Shown here piece after piece: positions 3,746 through 48,418 of a stretch of 64,000 nucleotides of DNA (its first letter is position 1; every line of letters begins with the position of its first letter). Below the pieces are notes generated by a model. That model was not told the DNA's origin and made no database searches. It worked only from the letters and a program-made list of their open reading frames with translations. Position numbers and translations under genes: made by a program. The DNA comes from Geodermatophilus sp. DSM 44513. GTDB lineage: Bacteria > Actinomycetota > Actinomycetes > Mycobacteriales > Geodermatophilaceae. The stretch spans positions 4,526,001-4,590,000 of the forward strand of contig NZ_CP135963.1 of assembly GCF_032460525.1 (NCBI RefSeq), read 5' to 3'.

Positions 3746-3866
3746 GACCGTCCGGGCCTCAGCCCGACACACATGGGCCGCGGCGAGCGCCGGGGCACCG
3801 GCCTCCGGAACGACCGGACGGCGGGTCCGGCCGTCGGCCGGGACGGTGGCCGGCCTGGTGGCCCGG

Positions 3867-6416
3867 TCAGCGCGGGGCCGGGACCTGCACCGATCCGGGC
3901 GCCGACGCAGCGGCCAACCGGTCACCCACCTCGGCGGCCGACGCAGGCCGGCCGAGGAGGTATCCCTGACCGAGGTCACAGCCCAGTTCCTGCAGCACCC
4001 CCGCCTGCTCGTCGGTCTCGACGCCCTCGACGACGACGTCGAGCGCCATGGACCGCGCCAGCTCGACGACCGCCCGGACGATCGCCACGTCGCGCTCGTC
4101 GGAGGCCAGCTGCTCGACGAAACCCCTGTCGATCTTGAGGCAGGTAACCGGCAGCTTCTTGAGCCGGCCCAGCGCGGAGTACTCCTGCCCGAAGTCGTCG
4201 ATCGCCAGCCGGATCCCCCGGGCGCTGATGCCCTCGAGCAGGGCCCGGACCACCTCGTCGTCGTCCAGCAGCAGGCTCTCGGTCACCTCCAGGCAGAGCC
4301 GGTCCGCGGGGAAACCGGTCGCCGACAGCACCTCGTCGATCTCCTCGAGGAGGCCCACCCGCACCTGCCGTGCCGAGACGTTGACGTGCAGGAGGAACTC
4401 GAAGGGCAGGCCGTGCCGCTCCCGCCACTGCTGCGCGGTGCGGCACGCCTCGTGCAGGATCCACCGCCCCAGCGGGACGACCAGGCCCACCTCCTCCGCC
4501 AGCGGCAGGAACTCCGCCGGGGGGAGCAGGCCACGCTCGGGGTGGTGCCAGCGGACCAGCGCCTCGACGCCGGTGGTCTCCCCCGTCGCCAGCCGGACGA
4601 TCGGCTGGTAGTGCAGGGTGAACAGTTCCTCCTGGACGGCGACCCGCAGGTCGGCCTCCAGGGCCAGCCGGGCGAGTGACCGGACGCGCTGCTCCGGGCC
4701 GGCCACGCGGTACTGGTCCTTGCCCGCCGTCTTGGCCTCGTACATGGCGACGTCCGCGTCGTGCAGCAGGTCGTCAGCAGCGACCTCCTCGGTCCCGAGC
4801 GCCGCGTACGCGATGCCGACGCTGGCCGAGCACACGATGGGCCGACCGTCGAGGACGACCGGTTCCCGGGCCACCGCCAGGACGCGCTCGGCGACGTGGA
4901 CCACCTCGGCGGTGTCCCGCACGTCGGTGAGCAGCACGATGAACTCGTCCCCGCCGAACCGGGCGACGGTGTCGCCGCGGCGCAGGCAGGTCTCGATCCG
5001 CCGCGCCGTCGCGACGAGCAGCTCGTCGCCGGCCCGGTGCCCCAGGACGTCGTTGACGAACTTGAAGCGGTCGAGGTCGACGAACAGGACCGCGTGCAGC
5101 GCTCCTGGCCGGTCCACCGCCAAGGCCGCCCGGAGCCGCCGGAGGAAGAGGCTGCGGCTGGGCAGACCGGTCAGGCTGTCCCGGTGGGCCAGGTGCTCCA
5201 GCTCGACGGTGGCCCGCCGCGTGTCGGTGACGTCGACGACCTGCAGCAGGCAGTGCGTGGGGCGGTCGGTGCGGCCGAGGACGACGGCCGCGCTGATCTC
5301 GGCCACCACGAGCCGCCCGTCGGGGCGCAGGTAGCGCTTGTCCCGGATGTGCCGAGGCGCAGCGGCGCCGGCCACGATGCCGGTGGCCACCGCCTCGCCG
5401 AGCACGGCACGCAGCACGTCCCGCTCGACCTGCTCGTCCCCGGGGTGGGTGACCGCCGCCGAGCCGCCGGCCACGAGCTCGGCCGCCGACCGGCCGAGCA
5501 TGGCGGACAGGGCCGCGTTGACCTCCTGCCACCGGCCGTCCAGCGTGACGATCGCCATGCCCACGGGCGCGTTCTCGAACGCGGTCCGGAACCGGTGCTC
5601 GTTCTCCCGGAGGGAGTCGAGCGCCTCACGGCGCTCGGCGTCGGTCTCCAGCAACCGGCGCTGGGTGTTGCCCAGCGCCGCCATGACCTCGCCCATCTCG
5701 TCGGGACGGCCGACCGGCACCTCCTGACCGAGGTCACCGGACTCGATGCGGCGGAAGTGGGCGATCAGCTCGCGCAGTGGTCCCAAGACGCTGCGGCTGA
5801 GCCGGGCACCGATCACCCGGCCCAGCGCGGCGATGACCGCGGCGACGATCAGCAGGGCGACGACCGAGGTGAGGTACAGCCGGCGCGCCTCCTCCGAGCG
5901 CTCCTCGGCACGCTGCAGCGCGTAGTCCATCAGGTCGTTCATCGCCTCACGGGCGGCCCGGAACTCCTCGACGGCGTCGCCGCGGGCCAGTTGTTCGGCG
6001 AGTTCCTTGTCCCCGGCCGCGCTGCTGGGCAGGATGTCGGTCCGCACCCGCCCGGTGTAGACGTCGAAGTGGCGCAGGAACGTGCCGAGCAGTTCCCCCT
6101 CCTCCGCGGACAGCCGGGTCCGGCGGTACTCCTCCAGCCGCTCGCGGGCTCGCCGCTCCTGGTCGGCCACCTCGCCGGCCAGCCGGGTCTCCGAACCCAC
6201 CGACCCGGCCAGGATGTGCTCCAGGGCGTCCCCACGGATGCGGTAGAGCGCGGACTTGACGTCGTCGAGCGCCTCCAGCGCCACGACCTCCTGGGTGTAC
6301 ATCCGCTCGACGTTGCGGTTCACGTGACCGAGGAAGTACAGCCCGGCACCGGCACACACGGCGGACAACAGCACCAGGGTGGTCAGGCCCAGGGCGAGTC
6401 GGCGGCGCAGGGACAC
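3867..6416 (-). CDS. Membrane-bound HAMP-PAS-GGDEF-EAL bifunctional c-di-GMP enzyme
   Basis: An 849-aa sensor enzyme. Order: transmembrane helix (about 3-30), extracellular helical sensor region (30-195), second transmembrane helix (about 195-215), HAMP, PAS (285-400), GGDEF (motif at 488-492, RFGGDEF), EAL (motif at 618-620). An RRGD product-inhibition site lies five residues before GGDEF, and the EAL catalytic residues (EVTES, AIDDFG, KIDRGF, VVEGVE) are present, so both activities are possible. I chose GTG 6416 because GGAGG lies 4 nt upstream; the longer reading frame to 6515 adds a poor N-terminus. It is likely a signal-dependent switch between synthesis and breakdown. Confidence 0.9.
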   Translation of the reverse strand: MSLRRRLALGLTTLVLLSAVCAGAGLYFLGHVNRNVERMYTQEVVALEALDDVKSALYRIRGDALEHILAGSVGSETRLAGEVADQERRARERLEEYRRTRLSAEEGELLGTFLRHFDVYTGRVRTDILPSSAAGDKELAEQLARGDAVEEFRAAREAMNDLMDYALQRAEERSEEARRLYLTSVVALLIVAAVIAALGRVIGARLSRSVLGPLRELIAHFRRIESGDLGQEVPVGRPDEMGEVMAALGNTQRRLLETDAERREALDSLRENEHRFRTAFENAPVGMAIVTLDGRWQEVNAALSAMLGRSAAELVAGGSAAVTHPGDEQVERDVLRAVLGEAVATGIVAGAAAPRHIRDKRYLRPDGRLVVAEISAAVVLGRTDRPTHCLLQVVDVTDTRRATVELEHLAHRDSLTGLPSRSLFLRRLRAALAVDRPGALHAVLFVDLDRFKFVNDVLGHRAGDELLVATARRIETCLRRGDTVARFGGDEFIVLLTDVRDTAEVVHVAERVLAVAREPVVLDGRPIVCSASVGIAYAALGTEEVAADDLLHDADVAMYEAKTAGKDQYRVAGPEQRVRSLARLALEADLRVAVQEELFTLHYQPIVRLATGETTGVEALVRWHHPERGLLPPAEFLPLAEEVGLVVPLGRWILHEACRTAQQWRERHGLPFEFLLHVNVSARQVRVGLLEEIDEVLSATGFPADRLCLEVTESLLLDDDEVVRALLEGISARGIRLAIDDFGQEYSALGRLKKLPVTCLKIDRGFVEQLASDERDVAIVRAVVELARSMALDVVVEGVETDEQAGVLQELGCDLGQGYLLGRPASAAEVGDRLAAASAPGSVQVPAPR

Positions 6417-6554
6417 GGGGCCTCCGGAGGGGGACGAGCCGGGGCGGGGGAGACCCCGAGGTGTACTGCGTCCTCGTCGGCACGCCACGGTAACCCCGTA
6501 GGTGGTGCGTGGCACAGTTGCGTGCCATCGTCGTCCCGGAACAGAACCGCGACG

Positions 6555-6923
6555 TCACCCCCGCGCCAGGGCCCACCCCAGTGCGGCGGCCCCCACCGCC
6601 AGGACGGCGGTACCGAGCAGGTGGCCCAGGCCGCGGGCCAGCTGCCGCTGCTCGACCAGCCGGAGCACGTCGGCGCTCGCGGTGGAGAAGGTGGTGAGGG
6701 CGCCGCAGAAGCCGGTGCCCACCAGTGCCACCACGGCCGGGGGAGCGGCCGCGGACCCCAGCACCACGCCGAGCAGCGCACTGCCGGCGACGTTGACGGC
6801 CAGCGTCCCCCACGCGGTGTCCCACCCGGCGCGGGCGGCCAGCCGGGTGGCCAGCAGCCGCAGCGGCGCACCGGCCAGCGCGCCGGCCACCACGAGCAGC
6901 GCCGTGACGAGCGGCCCGGTCAC
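6555..6923 (-). CDS. crcB: CrcB/Fluc fluoride channel subunit, second gene
   Basis: A 122-aa four-helix membrane protein of the Fluc/CrcB fluoride-export family. The GTG start overlaps the stop of the upstream crcB gene by 4 nt (GTGA). Family features are the asparagine-containing LAVNVAGSALLG segment and the GTGFCGALTTFST segment with the phenylalanine/threonine track. Together with its neighbour it should form a heterodimeric channel, as in organisms with two adjacent crcB genes. No fluoride riboswitch is visible upstream of the pair. Confidence 0.92.
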   Translation of the reverse strand: MTGPLVTALLVVAGALAGAPLRLLATRLAARAGWDTAWGTLAVNVAGSALLGVVLGSAAAPPAVVALVGTGFCGALTTFSTASADVLRLVEQRQLARGLGHLLGTAVLAVGAAALGWALARG

Positions 6924-7309
6924 CGGCCCCGGGCCCCCGTCCGGGACTCCCGGACCGCCACCGCCCCGGCGGCGACGGCGAGCAGGCCGCCGAGCAGCGA
7001 GACGACCACGTACGCCGCGGCCAGCGCCGGGGCACCGGCCTCGACCAGGACGACGACCTCCACGGCGAAGGCCGAGTACGTCGTGTAGCCGCCCAGCACG
7101 CCGACGCCGAGCAGCGGCCGCGCCCACGCCGGCTCGGGGGAGCGGGCGGTGAGGGCGGCGAGCAGGACGCCCATGAGCAGGCAGCCGGTGAGGTTGACCA
7201 GCAGCGTGCCCCAGGGCCACTCGCCGGGGGCCTGCGGCAGCGCCGTCCCGACGCCCCACCGGGCCAGCGCCCCCAGGGCCCCGCCCACCGCCGCGAGCAG
7301 GTACGCCAC
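6920..7309 (-). CDS. crcB: CrcB/Fluc fluoride channel subunit, first gene
   Basis: A 129-aa four-helix membrane protein of the fluoride exporter family. It carries GTLLVNLTGCLLMG and GVLGGYTTYSAF segments that match the Fluc pore region. GTG 7309 was chosen over the upstream ATG at 7357 because GGAGGAG lies about 7 nt before it and the length then fits the family (about 125 aa). It overlaps the second crcB by 4 nt. The only object between it and terC is a long hairpin (7331-7400). Confidence 0.9.
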   Translation of the reverse strand: MAYLLAAVGGALGALARWGVGTALPQAPGEWPWGTLLVNLTGCLLMGVLLAALTARSPEPAWARPLLGVGVLGGYTTYSAFAVEVVVLVEAGAPALAAAYVVVSLLGGLLAVAAGAVAVRESRTGARGR

Positions 7310-7330
7310 CGGCTGCTCCTCCCCGTCCCC

Positions 7331-7400
7331 GCGATCATGACGTGCCGGAGGCGACACACCGGGCCGAGCCGGCGTGTCGCCTCCGCACCTCCATGATCGC
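7331..7400. repeat. Dispersed 3'-end hairpin element, copy A
   Basis: Long inverted repeat: GCGATCATG (7331-7339) pairs with CATGATCGC (7392-7400), and GGAGGCGACAC pairs with GTGTCGCCTCC around a CCGG core. It lies just after the terC stop and before crcB. Copies B (23203-23274) and C (48434-48499) share the GATCAT...ATGATC outer arms and an ACCGGCGTGTCG-like core. It may act as a terminator for terC. Confidence 0.8.
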
Positions 7401-7406
7401 GGTCGG

Positions 7407-8456
7407 TCAGGGAGCCGGGCTCAGCGGCTCCCGGTCCCGGTCCTGGTCGCGGCCGCGGCGCCACAGCGGCTCCACCTCGGCCATCTCCTCGGCGGTCGCC
7501 ACCCGGAACGGGGGAGCGGCGGGCGCCTCGACGGCCCGGCGTCCCTGACCCCGGGTGGCGCGCAGGCTGGCCCACACCGAGACGGCGAGGATCGTGGCGA
7601 TCACCGCGAGGCTGACGGTGGTGGGGATGTAGTAGACGTCGATCTTGAGCAGCATCTTGACGCCCACCCACATGAGCACCAGCGCCAGGCCGGCCTTCAG
7701 GTAGACGAAGCGGTGGATGAGGTCGGCGAGCAGGAAGTACATCGCCCGGAGGCCCAGGATGGCGAACGCGTTGGCGGTGAAGACGAGGAACGGCTCGTCG
7801 GTCACGGCGAAGATCGCCGGGATCGAGTCGACCGCGAACACCACGTCGGTGACCTCGACGAGCACCAGCACCGCCAGCAGCGGGGTGGCCAGCAGGACCC
7901 CGCCCCGCCGGACGAGGAACCGCTGCCCGTGGTAGGCGTCGGTCATCGGCACGAACCGGCGGAACAGCTGCAGGGTGCGCGACCGGGAGGGGTCGATGTG
8001 CTCGTTGCGCTGCCGGAGCATGCGGTAGCCGGTCCACAGCAGGAACGCGGCGAACAGGTAGAGCACCCAGCCGAAGCTCTCGATCAGCGCCGAGCCGCCG
8101 GCGATGAACAGACCGCGGAGCACCAGGGCGCCCAGCACGCCGTAGAACAGCACCCGGTGCTGGTACTCCCGGGGCACGGCGAAGAAGGTGAAGATGATCG
8201 CCCAGACGAACACGTTGTCGACGGCGAGGGACTTCTCGATCAGGTAGCCGGCGAAGTACTGCTGGCCGAACTCCGACCCGTAGGCCGACCAGATCCAGGC
8301 GCCGAACCCGACGCCGAAGGCCACCCACACCGCCGACCACACCGCGGCCTCGCGCACGCCGATCACGTGGGCGCGGCGGTGGGCGAACAGGTCGATGGCC
8401 AGCATGCCGACGATCACGCCGAGCACGGCCGTCCAGAGCCAGAAGGGGACGTCCAC
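7407..8456 (-). CDS. TerC/Alx-family integral membrane protein, probable manganese exporter
   Basis: A 349-aa TerC-family polytopic protein with about 8-9 helices. The signature acidic motifs are visible: DLFAHRR near the N-terminus, KSLAVDNVFVW, and VEVTDVVFAVDSIPAIFAVT with membrane-embedded aspartates. Members of this family (Alx, MntP-linked TerC) export Mn2+ or handle metal in the exoenzyme pathway. The manganese reading is supported by a yybP-ykoY riboswitch in its leader. GTG 8456 has GGAGGAGA 4 nt upstream. The C-terminal about 40 residues are charged and cytosolic. Confidence 0.93.
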   Translation of the reverse strand: MDVPFWLWTAVLGVIVGMLAIDLFAHRRAHVIGVREAAVWSAVWVAFGVGFGAWIWSAYGSEFGQQYFAGYLIEKSLAVDNVFVWAIIFTFFAVPREYQHRVLFYGVLGALVLRGLFIAGGSALIESFGWVLYLFAAFLLWTGYRMLRQRNEHIDPSRSRTLQLFRRFVPMTDAYHGQRFLVRRGGVLLATPLLAVLVLVEVTDVVFAVDSIPAIFAVTDEPFLVFTANAFAILGLRAMYFLLADLIHRFVYLKAGLALVLMWVGVKMLLKIDVYYIPTTVSLAVIATILAVSVWASLRATRGQGRRAVEAPAAPPFRVATAEEMAEVEPLWRRGRDQDRDREPLSPAP

Positions 8457-8485
8457 GAACTCTCCTCCAGTCGGTGGTGCACCAA

Positions 8486-8584
8486 CCGGAGGTCTCTCCG
8501 ACGCCCCGCAGGGCGCCCGCTCGGCCGGACCCCGTCGGTCGGGGCCGTAGTGACGACACGAGCGTGGGGGATACTCCCCTCCTG
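8486..8584 (-). promoter_or_regulatory. yybP-ykoY (Mn2+) riboswitch upstream of terC
   Basis: On the minus strand the leader shows the family's conserved parts in order: GGAGGGGAGTA (closing stem plus L1), GTCGTCACTACGGC (matching the conserved GUCGUCA-UACGGC block), a GC-rich variable arm, then GGAGAGACCTCC, which closes P1 (GGAGG with CCTCC) and supplies the L3 GAGAC. In known examples Mn2+ bridges the L1 and L3 loops and raises expression. The terC ribosome site lies about 20 nt downstream. Recognition was by motif, not by a covariance search. Confidence 0.9.
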
Positions 8585-8586
8585 AA

Positions 8587-8610
8587 AACAGTGAAGCAGA
8601 CTTCACCTGT
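8587..8610. promoter_or_regulatory. Palindromic operator candidate in the terC/GGDEF-EAL divergent region
   Basis: ACAGTGAAG (8588-8596), a 4-nt spacer and CTTCACCTGT form an imperfect palindrome in an otherwise GC-rich intergenic region. On the minus strand it overlaps a possible promoter (TTGCCT, 17 nt, TTCACT) just upstream of the manganese riboswitch. It could bind a regulator of terC; the regulator is unknown. Confidence 0.4.
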
Positions 8611-8726
8611 CGAGGCAAGCGAGGTGCCCGGTGACCGGTTGCCGTCCGCACCCCCTTGGGGGGAAGCCGGCCGGCTACCCGGCGGCTGCGCTCAACCGGG
8701 GCCGGTGGCCGACCGATCACGACCGC

Positions 8727-10463
8727 ATGCAGCTGTCCTCGGCCACCCCCGACGTGGCCACGCCGCGGGTGATGGGGTGCACGGCCGGGTTCCTCTACAC
8801 GGTCGGCGGCTGCGCCATCCTCGCGCTCGCGGCCGGGTCCGGCCCCGGCGTGACGGCGCTGTGGCTGGTGGGCACCCTGGCCGTGGCCTGCGGCGGCGTC
8901 CTGCTGTGGGCCGGTCGCCGGCTGCCGCACCCCGCCTTCCACGGCGTCGTCCTCGCCGGCACCGCCCTGATCAGCACCGCCGTGGCCCAGGCGCCCTCGG
9001 CGCAGGTCGCGCTGGCGGTCGCCGCCATCTACGCCTTCGTGGCGATCGGCAGCTTCCTGTTCTTCTCCTGGCGCCAGGCGCTGGTCCAACTGCTGGTCGT
9101 GCAGGCCGCGCAGTCCGCGGCGCTGCTGGGCCACCCGGGCACCGGCCCGGAGGCCGCCGTCGCCGTCGGCCTGGTGTGCGTCGGGGTGTCCCTGGTCGTC
9201 GGTGCGCTGGTGCAGCGGGCCTCCAGCGCCAGCCGCGACGGCCTGACCGGGCTGCTCAACCGGCACGGGTTCGACGTGGCCCTGGAGGCCGCCGCGGCCG
9301 CCGCCGTCCGCGGGTCCCGGCCACCGGCCGTGGCGCTGCTGGACCTCGACCGCTTCAAGGCGGTCAACGACGGCCAGGGACGCGCGGCCGGCGACCAGCT
9401 GCTGCGGTCGGTGGCCCTCGCCTGCCAGCAGACCCTGCCCGCCGGGGTGCTCGTGGCCCGGCTGGGCGGCGACGAGTTCGCGCTGCTGTTCCCCGGCGCC
9501 ACGGCGGCGGGCGCGCTGGCGCGTGTGGAGCAGGTCCGCGCCGCCCTGCAGGACTGCGAGCTCTCCGGCGGCGTGGCCCAGCACCTGCCCGGGGAGAGCG
9601 GCGCCGAGCTGCTGCGCCGCGCCGAGACCGCCCTGTACGCCGCCAAGGCCGCCGGCCGCGGGCGCGTCGAGGTCAGCGGTGCCGACGCCGACGACCTGGC
9701 CGTCGCCCTGTCGGCGGCCATCGACGACGGGGTCATCGCGGTGGCCTTCCAGCCCGTCCTGTCCCTGCCCGACCGGCAGCTGGTCGGCGTCGAGGCGCTG
9801 GCCCGCTGGTGGGACCCCGAACGCGGCGCGGTCCGCCCCGACGAGTTCATCCCGGTCGCGGAGCGCACCGGGCAGGTGCCGGCCCTCGGCCGCGCCGTCC
9901 TGACCGCGGCCTGCCGCCAGGTGCGCACGCTGCAGGACGCGGCCGGGCGCCCGCTGCTGCTCACCGTCAACGTCTCCGGCCGCGAGCTGGTCGTCCCCGG
10001 CTACAGCGACTCGGTGCTGCGCACCCTGGCCGAGACCGGGTGGCCGGCCGAGCGGCTGGTGCTGGAGGTGACCGAGAGCGTCGTCGACGCCTCCTCCGGC
10101 GTCGCGCTGGAGACCCTCGCCGAGCTGCGCGGGCACGGCATCGCCATCGCCATCGACGACTTCGGCACCGGGTACTCCTCGTTCAGCCGGCTGGACACGC
10201 TGCCCGCGGACTACCTGAAGCTGGACTCCACCTTCATCGCCACCACGACCAGCTCACCGCGGCGGGCCGGGATGCTGCAGGCGCTGCTCTCGCTCAGCCG
10301 CACCCTGGGGTTGACGGTCATCGCCGAGGGCGTGGAGACCGAGGCGCACGAGGCGCTGCTGGTGTCGCTGGGCTGCCCGCTGGTGCAGGGATACCTGTAC
10401 GACCCCCCGCGCCCGGTGGACGAGCTGGTCGCCGCCCTGCGCGCCCCCGCCGTGGCCGGCTGA
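8727..10463 (+). CDS. Multi-helix membrane GGDEF-EAL protein
   Basis: A 578-aa protein. Five or six hydrophobic helices (about 14-165) form an N-terminal membrane sensor without close resemblance to MASE domains I know. A GGDEF domain follows (motif at 247-251, RLGGDEF) and then an EAL domain (EAL at 356-358; EVTESV, AIDDFGTGYS, LKLDSTF and VIAEGVE intact). The RxxD inhibitory site is absent. ATG 8727 is preferred; an upstream GTG at 8631 would add 32 residues that read poorly. It is divergent from terC and convergent with the NAGGN operon. Confidence 0.86.
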   Translation: MQLSSATPDVATPRVMGCTAGFLYTVGGCAILALAAGSGPGVTALWLVGTLAVACGGVLLWAGRRLPHPAFHGVVLAGTALISTAVAQAPSAQVALAVAAIYAFVAIGSFLFFSWRQALVQLLVVQAAQSAALLGHPGTGPEAAVAVGLVCVGVSLVVGALVQRASSASRDGLTGLLNRHGFDVALEAAAAAAVRGSRPPAVALLDLDRFKAVNDGQGRAAGDQLLRSVALACQQTLPAGVLVARLGGDEFALLFPGATAAGALARVEQVRAALQDCELSGGVAQHLPGESGAELLRRAETALYAAKAAGRGRVEVSGADADDLAVALSAAIDDGVIAVAFQPVLSLPDRQLVGVEALARWWDPERGAVRPDEFIPVAERTGQVPALGRAVLTAACRQVRTLQDAAGRPLLLTVNVSGRELVVPGYSDSVLRTLAETGWPAERLVLEVTESVVDASSGVALETLAELRGHGIAIAIDDFGTGYSSFSRLDTLPADYLKLDSTFIATTTSSPRRAGMLQALLSLSRTLGLTVIAEGVETEAHEALLVSLGCPLVQGYLYDPPRPVDELVAALRAPAVAG

Positions 10464-10488
10464 GCCCGCGCGGTCGGCCCTGGCGGCG

Positions 10489-12249
10489 TCAGCGGCGGCG
10501 GGTCTCGGGGAACAGCAGGTCCACGAAGCGTTCCACCGTCGGCTGCGGCTCGTGGTTGGCCAGCCCGGGCCGCTCGTTGGCCTCGATGAACACGTGCTCG
10601 GGACCGATCGGACCGGACGCACCGACGTCGGGCACCAAGAAGTCCAGCCCGGTCACCGGGATGCCGATGGCCCGGCTGGCCCGGACGGCGGCCTGCGCGA
10701 CCTGGGGGTGCAGCCGGTCGGTGACGTCCTCGATCGTCCCGCCGGTGTGCAGGTTCGCCGTCCGCCGCACCCGGATCCGCTCCCCCGCGGGCGGGACGTC
10801 GTCCATGGCGTAGCCGGCCTCCGCCACCACCTCGGTGGTCGCGGCGTCCAGCGGGATGCGCGACTCCCCCCCGGTGGCGCGCTCGCGCCGGCGGCTGGTG
10901 ACCTCGACCAGCTCGGTGACCGGGCTGCGGCCGTCACCGACGACCTCGGCCGGACGGCGCACCGCGGCGGCCACCACCTCGTGGTCGATGACGACGACCC
11001 GCAGGTCCTCGCCGGCCACCAGCTCCTCCACCAGGACGTCGGGACAGAACTGGGTAGCCAGCGCCACCGCCCGCTCCAGGGCCTCCGCCGAGGCCACGCC
11101 CACCGTGATGCCCTTGCCCTGCTCGCCGCGGGCGGGCTTGACGACCACCTCGCCGCACTCGGCCAGGAGGGCACGGGCGGCGACCAGGTCGCCGTCGCCG
11201 GCGGCCGCCCCGCGGGGGACGCGGACGCCGGCCCGCTCCATGATCCGCCGGGTGACCCGCTTGTCGTCGCAGCGGCTCATGGCCACCGCGCTGGTGAACT
11301 CCGAGAGCGACTCCCGGGTGAGGACGGTGCGCCCGCCCAGCGCCAGCCGCATCTCCCCCCACCCGGGGTCGGTCACCTCGACCCGGACGCCGCGCCGCAG
11401 CGCCTCCTCGGCGATGATCCGCGCGTAGGGGTTGAGGTCCTCCAGGCCCGGCGGCCGGGCGGCGAACAGCGGGGTGTTGATCGGGTTCTTCCGCTTGACG
11501 CACACCGCCGGGGTCCGGTGGAAGCCGAGCTTGCGGTAGAGCGCGATCGCGCCGGTGTTGTCGTGCATGACCGAGAGGTCCAGGTAGGCGCGGCCGCGGC
11601 CGACGTAGCGCTCGGCCAGCACGCGCACGAGCGCCTCGCCGGTCCCGGGTGGGGCGTCCTGGGCGTGCACCGCCAGGCACCACAGGCTGGCGCCGCCCTC
11701 CGGGTCGCCGAAGGCCAGCACGTGGTCCACGCCGGTGACCGTGCCGACGACCGCCCCGGTCCGCCGGTCCTCGGCGACCAGGTAGGTGAAGCAGCGGGTG
11801 CGGTGGTTGGCCCACATGGTCGCGGGGTCGCCGGTGACCATGCCGTTGCGCAGGTAGATTCCGTTGATCTGCTCCATCTCGGCCAGCGAGGTGACCGTGC
11901 GGACGAACACCCCGCGGATCAGGTCCGTGCGCGGCCGGTAGCGGTGCAGGTCCAGGCGGTAGGTGTAGCTGGGGTCGATGAACAGCTCGTCGGGCGCCAT
12001 GCCGACCAGGACGTGCGGGTCGCGCGGGTAGATGCAGATGTCGCGCTGGCCGCTCTCCTCCGAGCGCAGCGCCGTCACGATGCCGTCCAGGGCGGCGAAC
12101 GTCTGCCCGAAGACCAGCCGGCCCCAGGCCAGGTCCAGGACGACGTCGGCGTCCATCCCCTGCCGCTGGTGCTCCGACAGCTGCTGCCACGGCCGGCTGG
12201 TGGGCACCGGCGCGTGCCGGCGGTGCCCGGCGATCCGGGGCACCGTCAC
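10489..12249 (-). CDS. ngg: N-acetylglutaminylglutamine synthetase (GNAT + ATP-grasp)
   Basis: A 586-aa two-domain enzyme. An N-terminal acetyltransferase (about 100-260; GVDHVLAFGDPEGGASLWCL and VMHDNTGAIALYRKLGF) is fused to an ATP-grasp ligase (about 290-580; KPARGEQGKGI, VEELVAGEDLRVVVI, EANERPGLANH). This is the architecture of the enzyme that acetylates and joins two glutamines to make N-acetylglutaminylglutamine. The GTG start overlaps the amidotransferase stop by 4 nt (12246-12249). Its partner amidates the dipeptide, giving the osmolyte NAGGN. The role is inferred from domain pairing and gene order. Confidence 0.88.
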   Translation of the reverse strand: MTVPRIAGHRRHAPVPTSRPWQQLSEHQRQGMDADVVLDLAWGRLVFGQTFAALDGIVTALRSEESGQRDICIYPRDPHVLVGMAPDELFIDPSYTYRLDLHRYRPRTDLIRGVFVRTVTSLAEMEQINGIYLRNGMVTGDPATMWANHRTRCFTYLVAEDRRTGAVVGTVTGVDHVLAFGDPEGGASLWCLAVHAQDAPPGTGEALVRVLAERYVGRGRAYLDLSVMHDNTGAIALYRKLGFHRTPAVCVKRKNPINTPLFAARPPGLEDLNPYARIIAEEALRRGVRVEVTDPGWGEMRLALGGRTVLTRESLSEFTSAVAMSRCDDKRVTRRIMERAGVRVPRGAAAGDGDLVAARALLAECGEVVVKPARGEQGKGITVGVASAEALERAVALATQFCPDVLVEELVAGEDLRVVVIDHEVVAAAVRRPAEVVGDGRSPVTELVEVTSRRRERATGGESRIPLDAATTEVVAEAGYAMDDVPPAGERIRVRRTANLHTGGTIEDVTDRLHPQVAQAAVRASRAIGIPVTGLDFLVPDVGASGPIGPEHVFIEANERPGLANHEPQPTVERFVDLLFPETRRR

Positions 12250-14027
12250 ACCCCGTGGGTCTGCAGCCAGAGCTCCAGCAGGCCCAGCTGCCACAGCTGG
12301 TTGCCACGCAGGGGCGTGAGCTTCCCGTTGGGGTCGGCCAGCAGCGCGTCGACGTACTCGGGGCGGAACAGCCCGCGGTCACGGGCGGTGTCCCCGGTGA
12401 GCGCGTCGCGCACCAGGTCGAGCACCTTGCCCTCGAGGTGGGTGATCGCCGGGACCGGAAAGTAGCCCTTGGGCCGGTCGATGACCTCCGGCGGGATGAT
12501 CCGCCGTCCGATCGCCTTGAGCACGCCCTTGCCGCCGTCGGCCAGCTTCAGCTCCGGCGGGCAGGCGGCGGCCAGCTCCACCAGGTCGTGGTCGAGGAAC
12601 GGCACCCGGGCCTCCAGGCCCCAGGCCATGGACATGTTGTCCACCCGCTTGACCGGGTCGTCGACCAGCATCACCTCGCTGTCCAGGCGCAGCGCGGCGT
12701 CCACGGCGGTCTCCGCGTGCGGCGCGGACATGTGCTCGCGCACGAACTCCAGGCTCGGGTCGCCGGCCACGGCGTACCGGTCGGCGACCAACCGGGCCGT
12801 GTCGGCGGCGTCCCGGTCGAAGAAGGCCCGCGCGTAGCGCTCGACCGCCCGGTCGCGGCCGACGCCGGCCAGCGGCGGGTACCAGTGGTAGCCGGCGAAC
12901 ACCTCGTCGGCGCCCTGCCCGGACTGCACCACCCGGATGGACTGGCTGACCCGCTCGGACAGCAGGTCGAAGGCGACCACGTCGTGGCTGACCATCGGCT
13001 CGGCCATCGCGCCGATGGCGTGACCGAGGGCCGCGGCGAGCTCGTCACCGGCCACCCGGATGCGGTGGTGGTCGGTGCCGAAGCGCTCGGCGACGACGTC
13101 GGAGTAGACGAACTCGTCGCCCTCGCGCCCCGCCACGGCCTCGAAGCCGATCGAGTAGGTGGCCAGGCCGGTCTGCCCCTCCTGGGCGAGCAGGCCGACG
13201 ATGAGGCTGGAGTCCAGGCCGCCGGAGAGCAGCACCCCGACCGGGATGTCGGCGACCAGCCGGCGGCGGACGGCGACCCGCAGCGCCTCCTCGATCGCGT
13301 CCTCCCAGTCCCGGGCCGACCAGCCGGCGTGCTCGGCACGGCGCTCGTAGCGGGCCTCCCAGTAGCGGTGCTCGCGGGACGTGCCGTCGGCCTCGACCAC
13401 CCGCACGGTGGCCGGGGGCAGCTTGCGGACGCCGGCGAGGATCGTCCGCGGCGCGGGGACGACGGCGTGCCAGGTGAGGTAGTGGTGCAGCGCCACCGGG
13501 TCGATGGCGGTGTCGACGTCGCCGGCCTGCACCAGCGCCGGCAGCGAGCTGGCGAACCGCAGCCGGCCGGGGGTCTCGGCCAGGTACAGCGGCTTGATGC
13601 CCAGCCGGTCGCGGGCCAGCACCGTGCGGCCGGTGTCCCGCTCAGTGATGACGAAGGCGAACATGCCGTGCAGGTGGGAGACGACGTCGGTGCCCCAGTG
13701 GTGGTAGCCCTTGAGGATCACCTCGGTGTCGCTGGTGGAGAAGAACCGGTACCCGTGCCCCTCCAGCTCGGCGCGCAGCTCCTGGTAGTCGTAGATGCAG
13801 CCGTTGAAGACCGCGGTCAGGCCCAGCTCGTTGTCGACCATCGGCTGGCTGCCCGCGGGGGACAGGTCGATGACCGACAGCCGCCGGTGCCCGAAGGCCA
13901 CCCGACCGTTGCTCCAGGCGCCCTGACCGTCCGGCCCGCGGGGGACCAGGCACTCGACCATCCGCGCCACGGCGGTGGTGTCGGCCAGGGAGCCGTCGAA
14001 CCGGATCTCACCGGAGAGGCCGCACAT
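12246..14027 (-). CDS. asnO: N-acetylglutaminylglutamine amidotransferase (AsnB-type)
   Basis: A 593-aa class II glutamine amidotransferase. Cys2 after the initiator Met is the glutaminase nucleophile (MCGLSGEIR). The N-terminal Ntn domain shows PRGPDGQG and HRRLSVIDLSPAGSQPM. The synthetase domain carries the PP-loop SGGLDSSLIVGLL. The start is fixed by the required Cys2; longer in-frame extensions are not plausible. It is coupled to ngg by a 4-nt overlap. Without the ngg partner it would be called a generic asparagine synthase, but the pair marks NAGGN dipeptide amidation. Confidence 0.9.
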   Translation of the reverse strand: MCGLSGEIRFDGSLADTTAVARMVECLVPRGPDGQGAWSNGRVAFGHRRLSVIDLSPAGSQPMVDNELGLTAVFNGCIYDYQELRAELEGHGYRFFSTSDTEVILKGYHHWGTDVVSHLHGMFAFVITERDTGRTVLARDRLGIKPLYLAETPGRLRFASSLPALVQAGDVDTAIDPVALHHYLTWHAVVPAPRTILAGVRKLPPATVRVVEADGTSREHRYWEARYERRAEHAGWSARDWEDAIEEALRVAVRRRLVADIPVGVLLSGGLDSSLIVGLLAQEGQTGLATYSIGFEAVAGREGDEFVYSDVVAERFGTDHHRIRVAGDELAAALGHAIGAMAEPMVSHDVVAFDLLSERVSQSIRVVQSGQGADEVFAGYHWYPPLAGVGRDRAVERYARAFFDRDAADTARLVADRYAVAGDPSLEFVREHMSAPHAETAVDAALRLDSEVMLVDDPVKRVDNMSMAWGLEARVPFLDHDLVELAAACPPELKLADGGKGVLKAIGRRIIPPEVIDRPKGYFPVPAITHLEGKVLDLVRDALTGDTARDRGLFRPEYVDALLADPNGKLTPLRGNQLWQLGLLELWLQTHGV

Positions 14028-36688: not shown

Positions 36689-38401
36689 TCAGCCGACCCG
36701 GGCGGTGGTCCGGCGGACCCGCAGCCCGTCGAGCAGCAGCCCGGCCGCCAGCGCCGCCCCGGCGCCCTCCCCGGCCCGCAGCCGCAGGTCCAGCAGCGGC
36801 TCCAGGCCCAGGGCCTGCAGCACCGGGCCGTGCCCGCGCTCCCGGCTGCGCTGCCCGGCGACCAGGCAGGCCTGCGCGCCCGGCTCGAGCAGGACGGCGG
36901 CCAGCGCGGCCACCGAGACGGCGAACCCGTCCAGGACGACGGCGCTGCGCGCCTCCGCGGCGCCGAGCACCACCCCGGTGAGCACGGCGAGCTCCGGTCC
37001 GCCCAGCTCGGCCAGCGCCCGCGCCGGGCCCAGGCCGCGCCCGGCGCGTGCCACGGCGGCCGCGACCACGGCGAGCTTGCGCTCCAGCACGGCACTGTCG
37101 GCGCCGGAGCCCAGACCGGTGACCTCGGCCGGGTCGGCGTCCAGCAGCCCGGCGGCCAGTGCGGCGGCGACGGTGGTGTTGCCGACGCCGACCTCGCCGA
37201 GGGCGAGCAACCCGTCCCGCGCACCCAGCGCGCGCCCGGCGTCGAGCAGCCGGGCCACGTCGTGCCCGGTCATCGCGGGCGCGGTGGCGAGGTCGCCGCG
37301 GAGGCCGGCCGGGCGGGCGTCGACCGTCCCGGGCAGCGGGTCACCGCCGACCCCGGCGTCGACCACGACGGCGGTCAGTCCGGCCGCGGCCGCGGCGGTG
37401 ACGCCGACCGAGGTGCCCGCCAGCGCGGCGCGGACCACGTCGCGGGTGACCGCCGCCGGGTAGGCCGACACCCCCAGCGCCGCCACCGGGTGGTCGGCGG
37501 CGGCCAGCACCAGCGTGCCGCCGGTCAGCTCCCCGCGGCCCAGCGCCACGACCCGGTCGACGGCGCGGTCGAGCACGCCGAGCGAGCCGGGCGGGGTCAG
37601 CAGCCGGTCGGCCTCGTCGCGGGCGCCGACCACGGCCTCGCGCCCGGGGGCGCGCAGGGAGGACGGCGGCACGGGCGGGCCGCCGTCGTCGGCCGGCCAC
37701 CGGTCCTCGACGACGACGGCGTCCAGCGGCAGCCGCCGCGACCAGCCGGCCCGCTCCAGGCCCGGTGCGGGCGGGCGCTCGTCCGGCCAGCCCAGGCACA
37801 ACCAGCCCAGGGTGGCCACCCCGTCGGGCAGGCCGACCAGACCGGCGAGCTCCTCGGGGCGGAACAGGGTCACCCAGCCCAGGCCCAGCCCCTCGGCGCG
37901 GGCGGCCAGCCAGAGGTTCTGGATGGCCGCGGCACAGCTCCACAGGTCGGCGTCGGGGAAGGTGGCCCGGCCCAGCACGCCGGCCGCGGGCACGCGCCGG
38001 TCGCAGCAGACGACGATCCCCAGCGGCGCCTCGCGCACGCCCTCCAGCTGCAGGTCCAGCAGGCGGCGGGCGGCGTCCGGCTCCAGCTGCTCAGCCTGCC
38101 GCAGCCGCTCGCGGTCGGTGAGGACGGCGGCGCGGTCGCGCAACGCGGGGTCCCGGACGACGACGAACCGCCACGGCTGGCTGTGCCCCACCGACGGCGC
38201 GGCGTGCCCGGCGGCCAGCACCCGGCGCAGGACATCGCCGGGAACCGGGTCGGGCCGGAACCGGCGGACGTCGCGGCGGGCGGCGAGCACGGCGTAGAGG
38301 CCGGCGGCGTCGTCGGACATCGCCCAGCCGGCCGGGTCGCCGGCGCGCTGGGCGGCCGAGCTGGGGTCGCCGACGACCGGGACCGGGCGGGGGTACGTCA
38401 C
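36689..38401 (-). CDS. BluB-CobT fusion: DMB synthase + DMB phosphoribosyltransferase
   Basis: A 570-aa fusion for the lower ligand of vitamin B12. Residues about 30-235 match BluB, the flavin-destroying 5,6-dimethylbenzimidazole synthase (RRDVRRFRPDPVP, GHAAPSVGHSQPWRFVVV, EGLGLGWVTLF). Residues about 250-570 match CobT, which attaches ribose phosphate to DMB (TPPGSLGVLDRAVD, AADHPVAALGVSAYP, LGEVGVGNTTVAAAL). GTG 38401 overlaps the stop of the upstream gene by 4 nt. Such fusions occur in some actinobacteria and would channel DMB. No cobalamin riboswitch or other cob gene is visible nearby. Confidence 0.9.
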   Translation of the reverse strand: MTYPRPVPVVGDPSSAAQRAGDPAGWAMSDDAAGLYAVLAARRDVRRFRPDPVPGDVLRRVLAAGHAAPSVGHSQPWRFVVVRDPALRDRAAVLTDRERLRQAEQLEPDAARRLLDLQLEGVREAPLGIVVCCDRRVPAAGVLGRATFPDADLWSCAAAIQNLWLAARAEGLGLGWVTLFRPEELAGLVGLPDGVATLGWLCLGWPDERPPAPGLERAGWSRRLPLDAVVVEDRWPADDGGPPVPPSSLRAPGREAVVGARDEADRLLTPPGSLGVLDRAVDRVVALGRGELTGGTLVLAAADHPVAALGVSAYPAAVTRDVVRAALAGTSVGVTAAAAAGLTAVVVDAGVGGDPLPGTVDARPAGLRGDLATAPAMTGHDVARLLDAGRALGARDGLLALGEVGVGNTTVAAALAAGLLDADPAEVTGLGSGADSAVLERKLAVVAAAVARAGRGLGPARALAELGGPELAVLTGVVLGAAEARSAVVLDGFAVSVAALAAVLLEPGAQACLVAGQRSRERGHGPVLQALGLEPLLDLRLRAGEGAGAALAAGLLLDGLRVRRTTARVG

Positions 38402-38715
38402 GGGCGGTCCCGCCGCAGCCGGGCCGGTGCGCGCCGGGTCCAGGCGTCGTCCAGCAGGTCGGCGACCAGGGTCCCGTCGGCCGCGGCGAGGTCGACTTGC
38501 ACGCCGGCCAGGCGCCGGCCCCACTCCAGCAGGGTGACCGCGCCGCCCTCGGCCGCCCGCGCCTCCGACTCCCCCGCCATGACGTTCAGCTTGCCGGGCG
38601 CCCACAGCGTGGCGAGCACCGCGGTGCCCAGCCGGAACGACGGGCGGCCGTGGTGGTCGGCCTCAGTGACCTCCGGGAGGGCGAGGGCGAGCGCGCGGAC
38701 GTCGTCGTCGGTCAG
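38398..38715 (-). CDS. MmcQ/YjbR-family protein, probable CTG start
   Basis: A 105-aa MmcQ/YjbR-like protein (LTDDDVRALALALPEVTEAD, RPSFRLGTAVLATLWAPGKLNVM). The family has a DNA-binding-like fold of unclear function. No ATG, GTG or TTG exists in frame near the natural start. A CTG overlaps the previous stop as CTGA, in line with the 4-nt overlaps on either side of this gene, so a translationally coupled CTG start is the best reading. It overlaps the BluB-CobT gene by 4 nt at its 3' end. Confidence 0.72.
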   Translation of the reverse strand: MTDDDVRALALALPEVTEADHHGRPSFRLGTAVLATLWAPGKLNVMAGESEARAAEGGAVTLLEWGRRLAGVQVDLAAADGTLVADLLDDAWTRRAPARLRRDRP

Positions 38716-44924: not shown

Positions 44925-45938
44925 TCAGGGCACGAGCACCGCGCGGCCCACGACGCGGCCGGCGCGCAGGTCCTCGAGCACCCGCGGGGCGTCGGCCAGC
45001 GGGTGCGTGCTCACGCTGGTGACCAGCCGGCCGCGGGCGGCCAGCTCCAGGGCCTCGACCAGCTCGGCGCGCCGGTTGCCGACGGAGGTGACGATCCGCT
45101 GCTCGGGCACCACCATCGCCAGCGGGTCGACCTCCACCCGCTCGGCGGAGTAGCCGACGTAGACCAGCGTGCCGCGCTTGCCCAGGGCGGCCAGCGCGGC
45201 GGCGCCGGTCTCCCGGGTGCCGACCAGCTCGAACACGACGTCCGCCCCACGGCCACCGGTGGCCTCCCGGACGGCGCCGGCGACGTCCCCGGCCGACGCG
45301 TCCACGGTCACCGCGGCGCCCAGCTCGCGGGCCAGCTCCAGCCGCCGTGCCGACCGGGCCACCGCGACCACCCGCGCGCCGGCCTCCCGCAGCACCTGCA
45401 CCAACGCCAGCCCGACCCCGCCGACGCCGTACACGACGGCGTCCGACCCGGGCCGCACGCCGGCGACCGACACCGCGTGCAACGCCGTCGTCCCGCTGCA
45501 GCACAGCGTGGCCGCGGTGGGCAGGTCCACCCCCGCCGGCACGGGCACCACCGACGAGGCCGGGACGGCGACCTGCTCGGCGAACCCCCCGTCGGTGGCG
45601 AACGCGAGGAAGCCCAGCGGCGCGTCGCACAGGTGGTCGTCGCCGGCCCGGCACCAGCGGCACCGGTGGCAGGCGTGCAGGTAGTGGACGGCGACCCGGT
45701 CACCCACCGCGACGCCGTCGACCCCCTCGCCGAGCGCGGCCACCACCCCGGCGACCTCGTGGCCCAGGGTGATCGGGGTGCGGGCCGGGGTGAGCAGGCC
45801 GTCGAGGAAGTGCAGCTCGGTGCCGCACACCCCGGCCGCGGCGACGTCGAGCAGCACCTCGCCCGGACCGGGGCGAGGGGACTCGACGTCCTCGACGGTC
45901 AGGGGGTGTCCCACCCCGGAGAAACGGACAGCACGCAC
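44925..45938 (-). CDS. Zinc-dependent alcohol dehydrogenase under TPP riboswitch control
   Basis: A 337-aa MDR alcohol dehydrogenase. Catalytic zinc ligands are GVCGTE (Cys38) and LGHEVAGVV; the structural zinc lobe shows [15 protein letters not shown]; the cofactor site is [15 protein letters not shown]. The GTG start lies 7 nt after GGGAGG, which is also the 3' end of a TPP riboswitch, so translation should fall when thiamine pyrophosphate is high. It is divergent from thiM-thiE-thiD. A function in thiamine or thiazole/pyrimidine alcohol metabolism is suggested by regulation only; the enzyme family gives no specific substrate. Confidence 0.88.
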
Positions 45939-45945
45939 GCAACGG

Positions 45946-46030
45946 CCTCCCTACGCCGGCACGACCCGGACAGGTTCGGACGGTCGGCGGCCCCAGCCGC
46001 CCTCTCAGCCCGCTCGGCGCGGGCTCCCGT
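45946..46030 (-). promoter_or_regulatory. TPP riboswitch controlling the alcohol dehydrogenase
   Basis: The minus strand carries the THI-element blocks in order: GGAGCCC paired with GGGCTGAGAGGGCGGC, then CCGAACCTGTCCGGGTCGTG, then CCGGCGTAGGGAGG. CTGAGA, ACCTG and the GGCGTAGGGA end are the conserved pyrimidine- and pyrophosphate-binding segments. The final GGGAGG doubles as the Shine-Dalgarno site, pointing to translational control. Confidence 0.92.
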
Positions 46031-46083
46031 GGTCAGGGCCGGGACGCTACCGGGCCGACCGGCCGGTGTTACGTTCGGCTCGG
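46031..46083. promoter_or_regulatory. Bidirectional promoter between two TPP riboswitches
   Basis: About 50 bp separates the two aptamers. TACGTT (46070-46075, plus strand) and TAGCGT (46044-46049, minus strand) are suitable -10 boxes with start points close to the 5' ends of the respective riboswitches. Confidence 0.55.
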
Positions 46084-46158
46084 CACGGGGTGTCCCCTCC
46101 CGGGGACTGAGAGCACACCCGTCGAACCTGCTCCAGTTCGCACTGGCGAAGGGATGTC
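46084..46158 (+). promoter_or_regulatory. TPP riboswitch controlling thiM-thiE-thiD
   Basis: GGGGTGTCCC, GGGACTGAGAGCACACCC, TCGAACCTGCTCCAGTTCG and CACTGGCGAAGGGATG are the ordered conserved blocks of a TPP aptamer. GAAGGGA near its 3' end lies about 10 nt before the thiM ATG, so binding of thiamine pyrophosphate would hide the ribosome site. Confidence 0.95.
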
Positions 46159-46164
46159 ACCGGC

Positions 46165-46953
46165 ATGCCGGTCCTCGACCTGCGGGCCGCCTCCGCGGCG
46201 CTGCGCACCCGCACCCCCCTGGTGCACTGCCTGACCAACACCGTCGTGCAGACCGTCACCGCCAACGCCCTGCTGGCCGTCGGCGCCGCGCCGGCGATGG
46301 TGGACGCCCCGGAGGAGGCCGGCGACTTCGCCGCGGTCGCCTCCGCGGTGCTGGTCAACGTGGGCACCGTCTCCGCCCGCACCGCCGAGGCCATGCGGCT
46401 GGCCGCCCGCGCGGCCGGGACGGCCGGCACGCCGTGGGTGCTCGACCCGGTCGCGGTCGGCGGGCTGGCGTTCCGCACCGGACTGGCCGCCGAGCTGGTG
46501 GGGCTGCGGCCGACCGTCGTCCGCGGCAACGCCTCGGAGGTCATGGCGCTGGCCGGCGCGGGCGCCGGCGGCCGCGGCGTGGACAGCACCGACAGCGCCG
46601 AGGACGCCGCGAAGGCCGCCGCCGAGCTCGCCGCCCGCACCGGCGGGGTGGTCGCGGTCAGCGGCGCGGTCGACCTGGTCACGGACGGGCGGCGCACGGT
46701 CCGCGTCGGCGGCGGCTCGGCGCTGCTCACCCGCACCACCGGTGCCGGCTGCGCGCTGGGCGCCCTGGTCGCCGCCTACGTGGCCGCCACCGGCGACCCG
46801 CTCACCGGGGCGGTCGCCGCGCACGCGCACGTCGCCGTCGCCGCCGAGCGCGCCGCGGCGGTGGCCGGCGGCCCCGGCACCTTCACCCCCGCCTGGCTCG
46901 ACGCGCTGGACGCCGTGGACGGCGACGCGCTGGCCGCGGCCGACGTCCGATGA
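46165..46953 (+). CDS. thiM: Hydroxyethylthiazole kinase
   Basis: Phosphorylates hydroxyethylthiazole, the salvage route to the thiazole half of thiamine. The 262-aa protein has [41 protein letters not shown] and the ATP/anion-hole motif [15 protein letters not shown]. It is led by a TPP riboswitch and its stop overlaps the thiE start (ATGA). The operon has no thiC or thiG, so it looks like a salvage unit that also completes coupling through thiE and thiD. Confidence 0.96.
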
Positions 46954-47606
46954 GCAGGGCGTTCGACCCGACCCTCTACCTGGTCACCGACACCGCGCTG
47001 TGCCGCCCCCGCCCGGTGGCCGACGTCGTCCGCGCGGCCGTGGCCGGTGGCGTCACCACCGTCCAGGTCCGGGACAAGACCGCCGCCCGCCGCGAGCTGC
47101 TGGCGCTCACCCGGGCGGTGCAGGACGCGCTGGCCGGCCGGCCCGACGTCGCGCTGTGGGTCAACGACGCGGTCGACGTCGCGCTGCTCGCCGGGGCCGA
47201 CGGCGTGCACCTCGGCCAGGACGACCTGCCCCCCGCCGAGGTGCGGGCCCTGCTCGGTCCCGACCGGCTGCTCGGGTTCAGCGTCTCCTCCGTCGCCGAG
47301 CTCGACGTCGCCCGCGCCCTGCCGCCCGGCACCGTCGACCTGGTGGGCATCGGCCCGGTGTGGTCGACGCCGACCAAGCCCGACGCCGGCACCGCGCTCG
47401 GCCCGGACGGCGTCCGCGCGCTGGCCGACGAGGCCCGGGCCGCGGGGTTCACCACCGTCGCGATCGGCGGCATCGACGCCGACCGGGCCGGCGAGGTGGC
47501 CGCCACCGGGGTGGACGGCGTGTGCGTCGTCTCGGCGATCTGCACGGCGGAGGACCCGCAGCGGGCGGCCCGCCGGCTGGACGAGTCGATCGGGGCGGCC
47601 CGGTGA
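46950..47606 (+). CDS. thiE: Thiamine-phosphate synthase
   Basis: Joins hydroxymethylpyrimidine diphosphate with thiazole phosphate to give thiamine phosphate. The 218-aa TIM barrel shows [60 protein letters not shown] and [13 protein letters not shown], all standard for ThiE. It overlaps thiM by 4 nt (ATGA) and thiD by 4 nt (GTGA), so the three are translationally coupled. Confidence 0.96.
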
Positions 47607-48418
47607 GCGGGGTCGCGGTGGCGCTGACCGTGGCGGGGAGCGACCCCAGCGGCGGCGCCGGCATCCAGGCCGACCTGAAGACCTTCAGCGCGCTGGGCGT
47701 CTACGGCACCGCGGTGCTCACCGCGCTCACGGCGCAGAACACCCGCGGCGTCACCGGCGTGCACGCCGTCCCCGCCGCCTTCGTCGCCGAGCAGCTGGCC
47801 ACGCTGTTCGCCGACGTCGGGGTGCACGCCACCAAGCTCGGCATGCTCGGCACCGCCGACGTGGTCCACGCGGTCGCGGAGGCGCTGGCCGCCCGCCCGG
47901 GCGGGCCGGTGGTGTGCGACCCGGTGATGGTGGCGACCAGCGGCGACCGGCTCATCGACGACACCGCCGTCGACGCCGTCCGCGCCGAGCTGCTGCCCCA
48001 TGCCGACCTGGTGACGCCGAACGTGCCCGAGGCCGCCGTCCTGCTCGGCGTCGACCCGGCGACCGACGTCGACCAGCTGCCCGGCCAGGCCACCGCGCTG
48101 CTGGCGCTCGGCCCGCGGGCGGTGCTGCTCAAAGGCGGCCACCTGGGCGGCGAGGACAGCGTCGACGTGCTGGCCACCGCCGACGGCGTGACGGTCACCC
48201 GGCGGCCCAGGGTGCACACCACCTCGACGCACGGCACCGGGTGCACGCTGTCCTCCGCGCTCGCCGCGCTGGCCGCCCGCCACCGCACCGACGACTGGAC
48301 CCGGCTGGTCGACCCGGCGCGGGACTACCTGCAGCGGGCGCTGCAGGCGGGCGGCACCCTGGGCGTCGGCTCCGGGCACGGTCCCGTGCACCACTTCGCC
48401 GGCGTCTGGGAGCGGTGA
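47603..48418 (+). CDS. thiD: Hydroxymethylpyrimidine (phosphate) kinase
   Basis: Phosphorylates HMP and HMP phosphate. The 271-aa ribokinase-fold protein has [55 protein letters not shown] and the anion-hole motif [17 protein letters not shown] start overlaps the thiE stop by 4 nt. It ends the TPP-regulated thiMED operon and converges with the flotillin gene at hairpin copy C. Confidence 0.95.

Follow-up and report, generated by a model that had tools for sequence, protein, structure and literature searches.

TPP riboswitches (RF00059) nearly always mark thiamine genes, so that one conserved in front of a dehydrogenase yet to be characterised is a sign of a missing reaction. In thiamine salvage TenA yields HMP and ThiD uses it; to our knowledge, the salvage route YlmB-TenA-ThiD includes no oxidoreductase step. 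We analyzed a window of 64,000 nucleotides from the genome of Geodermatophilus sp. DSM 44513, in which a predicted TPP aptamer is found directly before the gene of a zinc-dependent alcohol dehydrogenase (ADH) of the MDR family. The element is like described TPP riboswitches in its conserved blocks, its P2-P5 architecture and its position over the ribosome-binding site, and a neighbouring instance leads thiM; it differs from them in the gene that it leads, an MDR dehydrogenase. The ADH is presumably co-regulated with, or a neighbour of, the salvage enzymes ThiM, ThiD and TenA, from which it differs in that these are kinases and a hydrolase. Both switch and fold are known, and the comparison suggests that the new part is a candidate unassigned thiamine step. 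Among the open-access papers searched, no title or abstract dealt with a TPP-led MDR dehydrogenase or with an HMP or HET alcohol dehydrogenase, although a THI-element survey of 2002 in J Biol Chem might mention one. The main text of a comparative riboswitch-regulon study (PMC3766115) does not contain the words dehydrogenase or oxidoreductase. The features of the locus are as follows.

44925..45938, minus strand: MDR zinc-dependent alcohol/aldehyde oxidoreductase (the ADH), 337 aa, GTG start; PF08240, PF00107
45941..46035, minus strand: TPP riboswitch aptamer, leader of the ADH; RF00059, 49.3 bits, E 9.7e-9
45952-45946, minus strand: Shine-Dalgarno AGGGAGG in the 3' end of the aptamer, read from the sequence
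46044..46049, minus strand: putative -10 element TAGCGT, found by eye in the leader sequences
46076..46171, plus strand: second TPP riboswitch, divergent, leading thiM; RF00059, 56.0 bits, over cut-off
46165..46953, plus strand: thiM, hydroxyethylthiazole kinase; PRK09355, 278.6 bits (cut-off 180); PF02110
46950..47606, plus strand: thiE, thiamine phosphate synthase; TIGR00693, 196 bits (cut-off 145.1)
47603..48418, plus strand: thiD, HMP/HMP-P kinase; TIGR00097, 298.2 bits (cut-off 204.95)

The initial annotation had described a THI element as leader of the MDR gene, with the Shine-Dalgarno sequence built into its 3' end, and both descriptions hold. The blocks CTGAGA, GAACCTG and GGCGTAGGGA are present, and the alignment to RF00059 (model positions 6-95 in a 501-base scan) contains the core blocks and the P2-P5 helices. 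The aptamer stops 2 nt from the GTG start; AGGGAGG lies 7 nt from this start codon (45938) and, in the Rfam structure, shares bases with the 3' strands of P4 and P1. The score is another matter. At 49.3 bits the window element is under the RF00059 gathering score of 54.3, and a default whole-window Rfam scan therefore reports the element at 46076-46171 alone; the check by Rfam score is negative in the window and positive in 15 of 23 orthologous leaders, which are over 54.3 (up to 69.3 bits), the other eight being under it (down to 39.6). The putative TAGCGT element would put the transcript start at about the first aptamer base; a sigma-70 consensus scan gave no promoter at that site.

Five TPP matches at E <= 1 are present in the 4.63-Mb one-contig genome, two of them in the ADH/thiM intergenic region at a spacing of 40 nt. 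Elsewhere in this genome, two TPP-led cytX-like permeases (C1:4099904 and C1:81931; 206 and 213 bits against a CytX cut-off of 310) each have a ThiG nearby, and this cytX-like/ThiG module looks duplicated; two tenA copies are divergent to a TPP-led cytX-like gene. The fifth, weak match (C1:2112213-2112325, 44.5 bits) leads an SSF-type symporter, possibly a transporter of thiamine or a precursor, and a LuxC-like acyl-CoA reductase gene is found 277 nt past it. In the window itself, a long minus-strand ORF (36689-38605) resembles, by eye, a fusion of a BluB-type nitroreductase with a CobT-type phosphoribosyltransferase; BluB and CobT are B12 lower-ligand genes.

The association of the element with the ADH was followed in other genomes. 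Among 61 genomes, six carry the ADH, the Geodermatophilus genome included (E 1e-60 or better), and in 6/6 a TPP element is present at the ADH start. Two peptide patterns were run against 84,980 species genomes, a scan that misses relatives lacking them, and gave 51 loci. L069 was removed before counting: it has 34% identity, lacks the zinc-site cysteines in the alignment and is an unrelated oxidoreductase. The remaining 50 loci are distributed as follows: 32 are on the Arg195 side, Arg being seen in 31 of them and L070 (50 residues) being placed by its 86% identity, and 18 have Asp195. The Rfam model was applied to 25 ADH genomes, which stand for 25 of the 32 Arg195-side loci; it places the element at the start of the ADH in 23 and misses L037 and L047. 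With a custom covariance model (14 instances, 11 base pairs), a full element is found directly before the ADH in 29 of the 32, the model sharing sequences with some of the loci searched; six of its instances are ADH leaders (window, L020, L021, L023, L034, L045). L038 has the 3' half of the element, its contig starting inside it, and is not counted as a full aptamer. The custom model finds no element at L037 (Halosaccharopolyspora) and L047 (Actinomycetospora), both in the Arg195 clade, nor in any of the 18 Asp195 loci (0/18), nor in L104. The genome and locus sets overlap (G008 is L020, G013 is L023, G016 is L021, G020 is L034, G030 is L045, and G361, L102, is L036).

The riboswitch-ADH link is therefore conserved in relatives, as the initial annotation expected of a functional switch: the pair recurs across several genera, and two MAGs from other families have it too, one of Gaiellaceae (69.3 bits) and one of Egibacteraceae (50.2 bits). 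This conservation across genomes rules out a chance match. In a phylum scan the ADH is present in at least 5 of 396 genomes, a lower bound because five candidates were scored per genome; plasmids gave no match at 1e-50. In the window's family, 6 of 37 genomes have the ADH and 30 of 37 have thiM, which indicates that the ADH is not required for salvage in general.

Pairing in the leaders was examined on the window and 26 of the 29 full-aptamer loci (L043, L045 and L070 left out), which together give 24 distinct leaders. Paired cells amount to 89.5%, against 86.7 in shuffles and 28-52 in slides; the Rfam-derived structure was drawn on the window sequence and so has an advantage over the slides. 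For covariation the score is 0.128 versus 0.068 in shuffles, and 0 of 500 shuffles score as high. Five pairs are changed on both sides, a number equalled by 175 of 500 shuffles, and there are 18 further pair types, equalled by 69 of 500. Helices 2-5 are paired at 95.7-100% and P1 at 50.9%; the double-sided changes fall in P2, P3 and P3a. The ADH leader by itself shows no folding advantage over shuffled sequence (z +1.26).

On the other side of the intergenic region lies the thiM-thiE-thiD operon, of which the initial annotation makes no mention; thiM is identified by PRK09355 and stays under the TIGR00694 cut-off (239 bits for 256.4). A survey of relatives for MDR genes beside thiMED shows that the divergent arrangement, thiM having its own TPP element, is kept in 14 of 17 loci (L020-L034, L050, L070). 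The exceptions are L025, L031 and L033; in the last two, thiM is located elsewhere in the genome. L032 also has a TenA-like gene (37%) behind thiD. In G018 (L075), which has no ADH, a helicase-like gene and thiM are adjacent, so that the ADH was gained or lost at that site. Other relatives show further variation. ADH-less G015 has a TauE/SafE permease gene (PF01925; L092 552-1340) beside thiM, at the relatives' ADH site, and G025 (L099) has an ORF of the same size there. In the ADH-less Geodermatophilus relative G024 (G024:C1:5273782-5274493), the thiM match is in two adjoining pieces after an over-cut-off TPP element, which reflects either a broken gene or a sequencing error.

The ADH protein is over cut-off for both of its domains, PF08240 (GroES-like, 103.7 bits) and PF00107 (Rossmann, 99.1 bits). 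It matches 27 NCBIfam families, among them AdhP, Ahr, tdh and mycothiol-dependent FDH, and none is over cut-off among the 25 matches listed, the best listed score being 190.2 for AdhP (cut-off 344). It is like the zinc MDR enzyme 1rjw (Alcohol dehydrogenase), with a full-length profile match of 272.6 bits, both zinc ligand sets and the GVGGVG motif. It is unlike the zinc MDR ADHs in staying under the cut-offs of all 25 listed families, in a 10-residue motif that is partly a product of the search patterns, and in Arg195 with a non-acidic residue 194. In the alignment, all rows of the ADH branch have C38, H60, E61 and C147, which we take to be the catalytic zinc ligands, and C90, C93, C96 and C104, presumably the structural ones; L105 and the paralogues L106, L108 and L109 deviate at the first set.

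Residue 195 separates the element-led clade from the related ADHs. Every element-led row that reaches this residue has Arg195, and the 18 rows outside this clade, as well as L104, have Asp195; residue 194 is non-acidic in both groups. Under the general cofactor rules of MDR enzymes, Arg195 with a non-acidic 194 goes with NADP(H), and Asp195 with NAD(H). The split thus suggests an NADP(H)-using Arg195 clade facing NAD(H)-using Asp195 relatives, the NADP(H) reading resting on one position and these general rules. Arg195 is not diagnostic by itself, since L105 and the paralogue L106 have it as well; no thiamine gene was seen beside L105. In the tree, the Arg195 clade has support of 99/96. The Asp195 rows form several lineages, and the branch joining them against own-genome paralogues is weak (38/88), so they may not be one clade. 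The tree leaves out L063 (cut) and L070 (50 residues), and its long branches meet in the outgroup.

The neighbours of the element-led ADHs were then considered. The TPP element leads a thiamine-related row in several lineages. In L025, a MAG, a ThiD gene (TIGR00097, 295 bits, over cut-off) lies 10 nt downstream of the ADH on the same strand; it is overlapped by a thiE-like ORF (7852-8568, 49% to ThiE over part), which is followed by an AIRS gene. A reading of the ORF from 8052 as one ThiL-like protein was discarded, since its start is over-long and the thiE-like ORF occupies a different frame. Although the MAG carries the label Acidimicrobiia, its ADH is 79% identical to the Geodermatophilus ADH, so that a binning error or a transfer is possible. 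G117 (L103/L131), from the phylum scan, has a tandem of three overlapping genes: the ADH, thiE (TIGR00693 at 162 bits, above its cut-off) and one with an AIRS domain. Against ThiL and HypE the AIRS proteins of the two loci, L025 and L131, score nearly equally and under both cut-offs, and the name ThiL was dropped for them. Before the L131 row (4968-5041), half a TPP element is present, mainly the 3' arm and the AGGGA box. It scores 25.1 bits (E 0.0044) in a 251-base scan and 24.9 bits with the custom model, and escaped a 15-kb scan at E 0.05; it is either a switch in decay or a variant whose 5' half differs. 2-Oxoacid dehydrogenase genes are found nearby. All ten Modestobacter loci with downstream DNA (L038-L046, L066) have an MFS permease after the ADH; L063 is cut, and Pfam was applied to three of the ten. 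In L035, a Gaiellaceae MAG, the same-strand partner is a PfkB kinase, which resembles a general sugar kinase and was rejected as a specific partner kinase.

The Asp195 relatives have another type of neighbourhood. An aldehyde dehydrogenase (ALDH) and TenA are close to the ADH in 6 of the 18 loci (L048, L049, L052, L054, L056, L059), and L104 has the order TenA-ADH-ALDH; those of L052, L054 and L056 also contain Amidohydro_1 and Amidohydro_2 amidohydrolases. Cluster coordinates are 4464-12316 (L052, with two Amidohydro_1 genes and one Amidohydro_2 gene), 2357-7998 (L056) and 4480-8413 (L049). The ADHs of these seven clusters belong to the same branch, with a weak root, and the TenA-linked ones have 40-46% identity; the clusters differ from the Geodermatophilus locus in the lack of any TPP element found, in Asp195 and in the ALDH partner. 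Cluster proteins were assigned by Pfam for some and by tblastn similarity for others. The TenA of related clusters matches solved TenA/thiaminase II structures, and the two TenA proteins of L049 score 134.3 and 126.8, over and under the NCBIfam salvage-TenA cut-off of 130. These ALDH-Asp195 ADH-TenA(-amidohydrolase) clusters are a candidate thiamine-pyrimidine catabolic pathway. Amidohydrolase neighbours are also present in L051 (Peptococcaceae), together with an AllG-type gene, and in L057. The ten other loci (L053, L055, L058, L060-L062, L064, L065, L067, L068; tree support 100/100) combine an Amidohydro_3 gene with an ABC transporter whose binding protein is NMT1/THI5-like; eight are labelled Acidimicrobiia, and eight of the ten have an adenosylhomocysteinase-like gene. 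The binding protein matches solved structures weakly only (best 3qsl, E 6.1e-6). As the NMT1/THI5-like family also serves other ligands, the thiamine link of these ten loci is weak.

The genomes that carry the ADH show a salvage-dependent background, which does not prove a substrate. Of 27 ADH genomes, 19 lack a ThiC match, the Geodermatophilus genome among them; the other eight match, two by fragments. The same lack is seen in 35 of the 37 genomes of the window's family, with or without the ADH, so we do not count it as support for HMP: it is a family trait (2/37 have ThiC) and does not single out ADH carriers. TenA is present in 24 of 27 ADH genomes, and PF02110, for thiM, matches in 22 of 25 and in 6/6 of the carriers among the 61 genomes; no PF02110 match was obtained in G066 (a 2.3-Mb MAG), G074 and G075.

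These contexts favour the proposal of the initial annotation that the enzyme acts on a thiamine-related alcohol or aldehyde. The conserved element-ADH pair and the divergent, element-led thiMED argue for it, as do the rows with thiD, thiE, AIRS, MFS and PfkB genes and the relatives with TenA and ALDH. The caution given there, that the family by itself assigns no substrate, extends to family and context taken together. That the ADH is a thiamine-moiety enzyme seems to us highly probable, and the MDR branch as a whole probably serves thiamine-moiety metabolism. We consider it likely that the ADH is an NADPH reductase of the TPP regulon which restores a thiamine moiety for salvage. When TPP is plentiful, it would bind the aptamer, the Shine-Dalgarno sequence in P4/P1 would be held back and the ADH would stay untranslated; when TPP is low, the ADH would be made along with the thiM-thiE-thiD products, which are under the divergent switch. 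The ADH would then use NADPH to reduce an oxidised thiamine moiety to an alcohol accepted by the salvage kinases. PMC2258182 states that its term attenuation does not imply OFF logic. A degradative enzyme repressed by TPP would be odd and a salvage reductase would not, which makes us lean slightly towards a reductive role in vivo. The first-choice reaction would be the reduction of 4-amino-2-methylpyrimidine-5-carboxaldehyde to HMP, ahead of ThiD. HMP is common to TenA, ThiD and the amidohydrolases, which in some related clusters could act on the pyrimidine; we therefore place HMP-aldehyde reduction first and thiazole chemistry second, the choice of HMP-aldehyde in particular being a tentative one. 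Equally tentative is a reading of the whole branch, in which a TPP-repressed NADPH clade would restore HMP-aldehyde while NAD relatives, with TenA, ALDH and, in some genomes, amidohydrolases, would burn the same moiety.

Other explanations can be weighed against this reductase. The enzyme might act on the thiazole half, interconverting 5-(2-hydroxyethyl)-4-methylthiazole (HET) and its aldehyde and feeding ThiM. The divergent operon is headed by thiM, the PF02110 counts given above fit such a role, and TenA acting as thiaminase II yields both HET and HMP. But the same-strand partner in L025 is thiD and not thiM, three ADH genomes have no PF02110 match, thiM often occurs without the ADH, and the amidohydrolases of some related clusters would suit the pyrimidine better; we regard the thiazole as a rather unlikely substrate. 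An oxidative enzyme that degrades a thiamine moiety from alcohol to aldehyde to acid, as the TenA/ALDH-linked relatives probably do, would agree with the seven clusters of ALDH, ADH and TenA. An OFF switch, however, would turn such an enzyme on during TPP shortage, the available flanks of the 32 Arg195 loci (up to 6 kb, some shorter) show no relative of that ALDH, and the Arg195/Asp195 split sets the two groups apart, which makes this role improbable for the Geodermatophilus ADH.

It is slightly less probable still that the ADH deals with some wider consequence of TPP shortage, such as aldehydes or keto compounds from stalled TPP enzymes, with no thiamine-derived substrate. MDR enzymes are broad, L035 has its sugar-kinase-like PfkB partner and L131 its 2-oxoacid dehydrogenase genes; against this, the partners found are thiD, thiE and AIRS genes, with TenA in relatives, and no TPP element was found at the TenA-linked relatives. 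A last reading is that the element before the ADH, next to the thiMED switch, is a decayed or accidental copy with no control over the gene; this would account for the under-threshold score, the P1 mismatch and the second element 40 nt away. Yet the element precedes the ADH without an adjacent thiM in Modestobacter, Gaiellaceae, Egibacteraceae, L025, L031 and L033, and pairs of P2, P3 and P3a change on both sides; we give a decayed copy hardly any weight, and rejected a decoy of the thiMED switch on the Modestobacter loci.

If the two-clade reading of the MDR branch is true, it adds an oxidoreductase step to thiamine salvage and describes a thiamine-pyrimidine catabolic pathway, the relatives of the ADH being candidates for thiamine breakdown. 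With 35 of 37 genomes of the family giving no ThiC match, pyrimidine salvage is probably vital there. One may speculate that an enzyme widening the range of salvageable compounds would be important on stone and soil exposed to sunlight, where thiamine breaks down.
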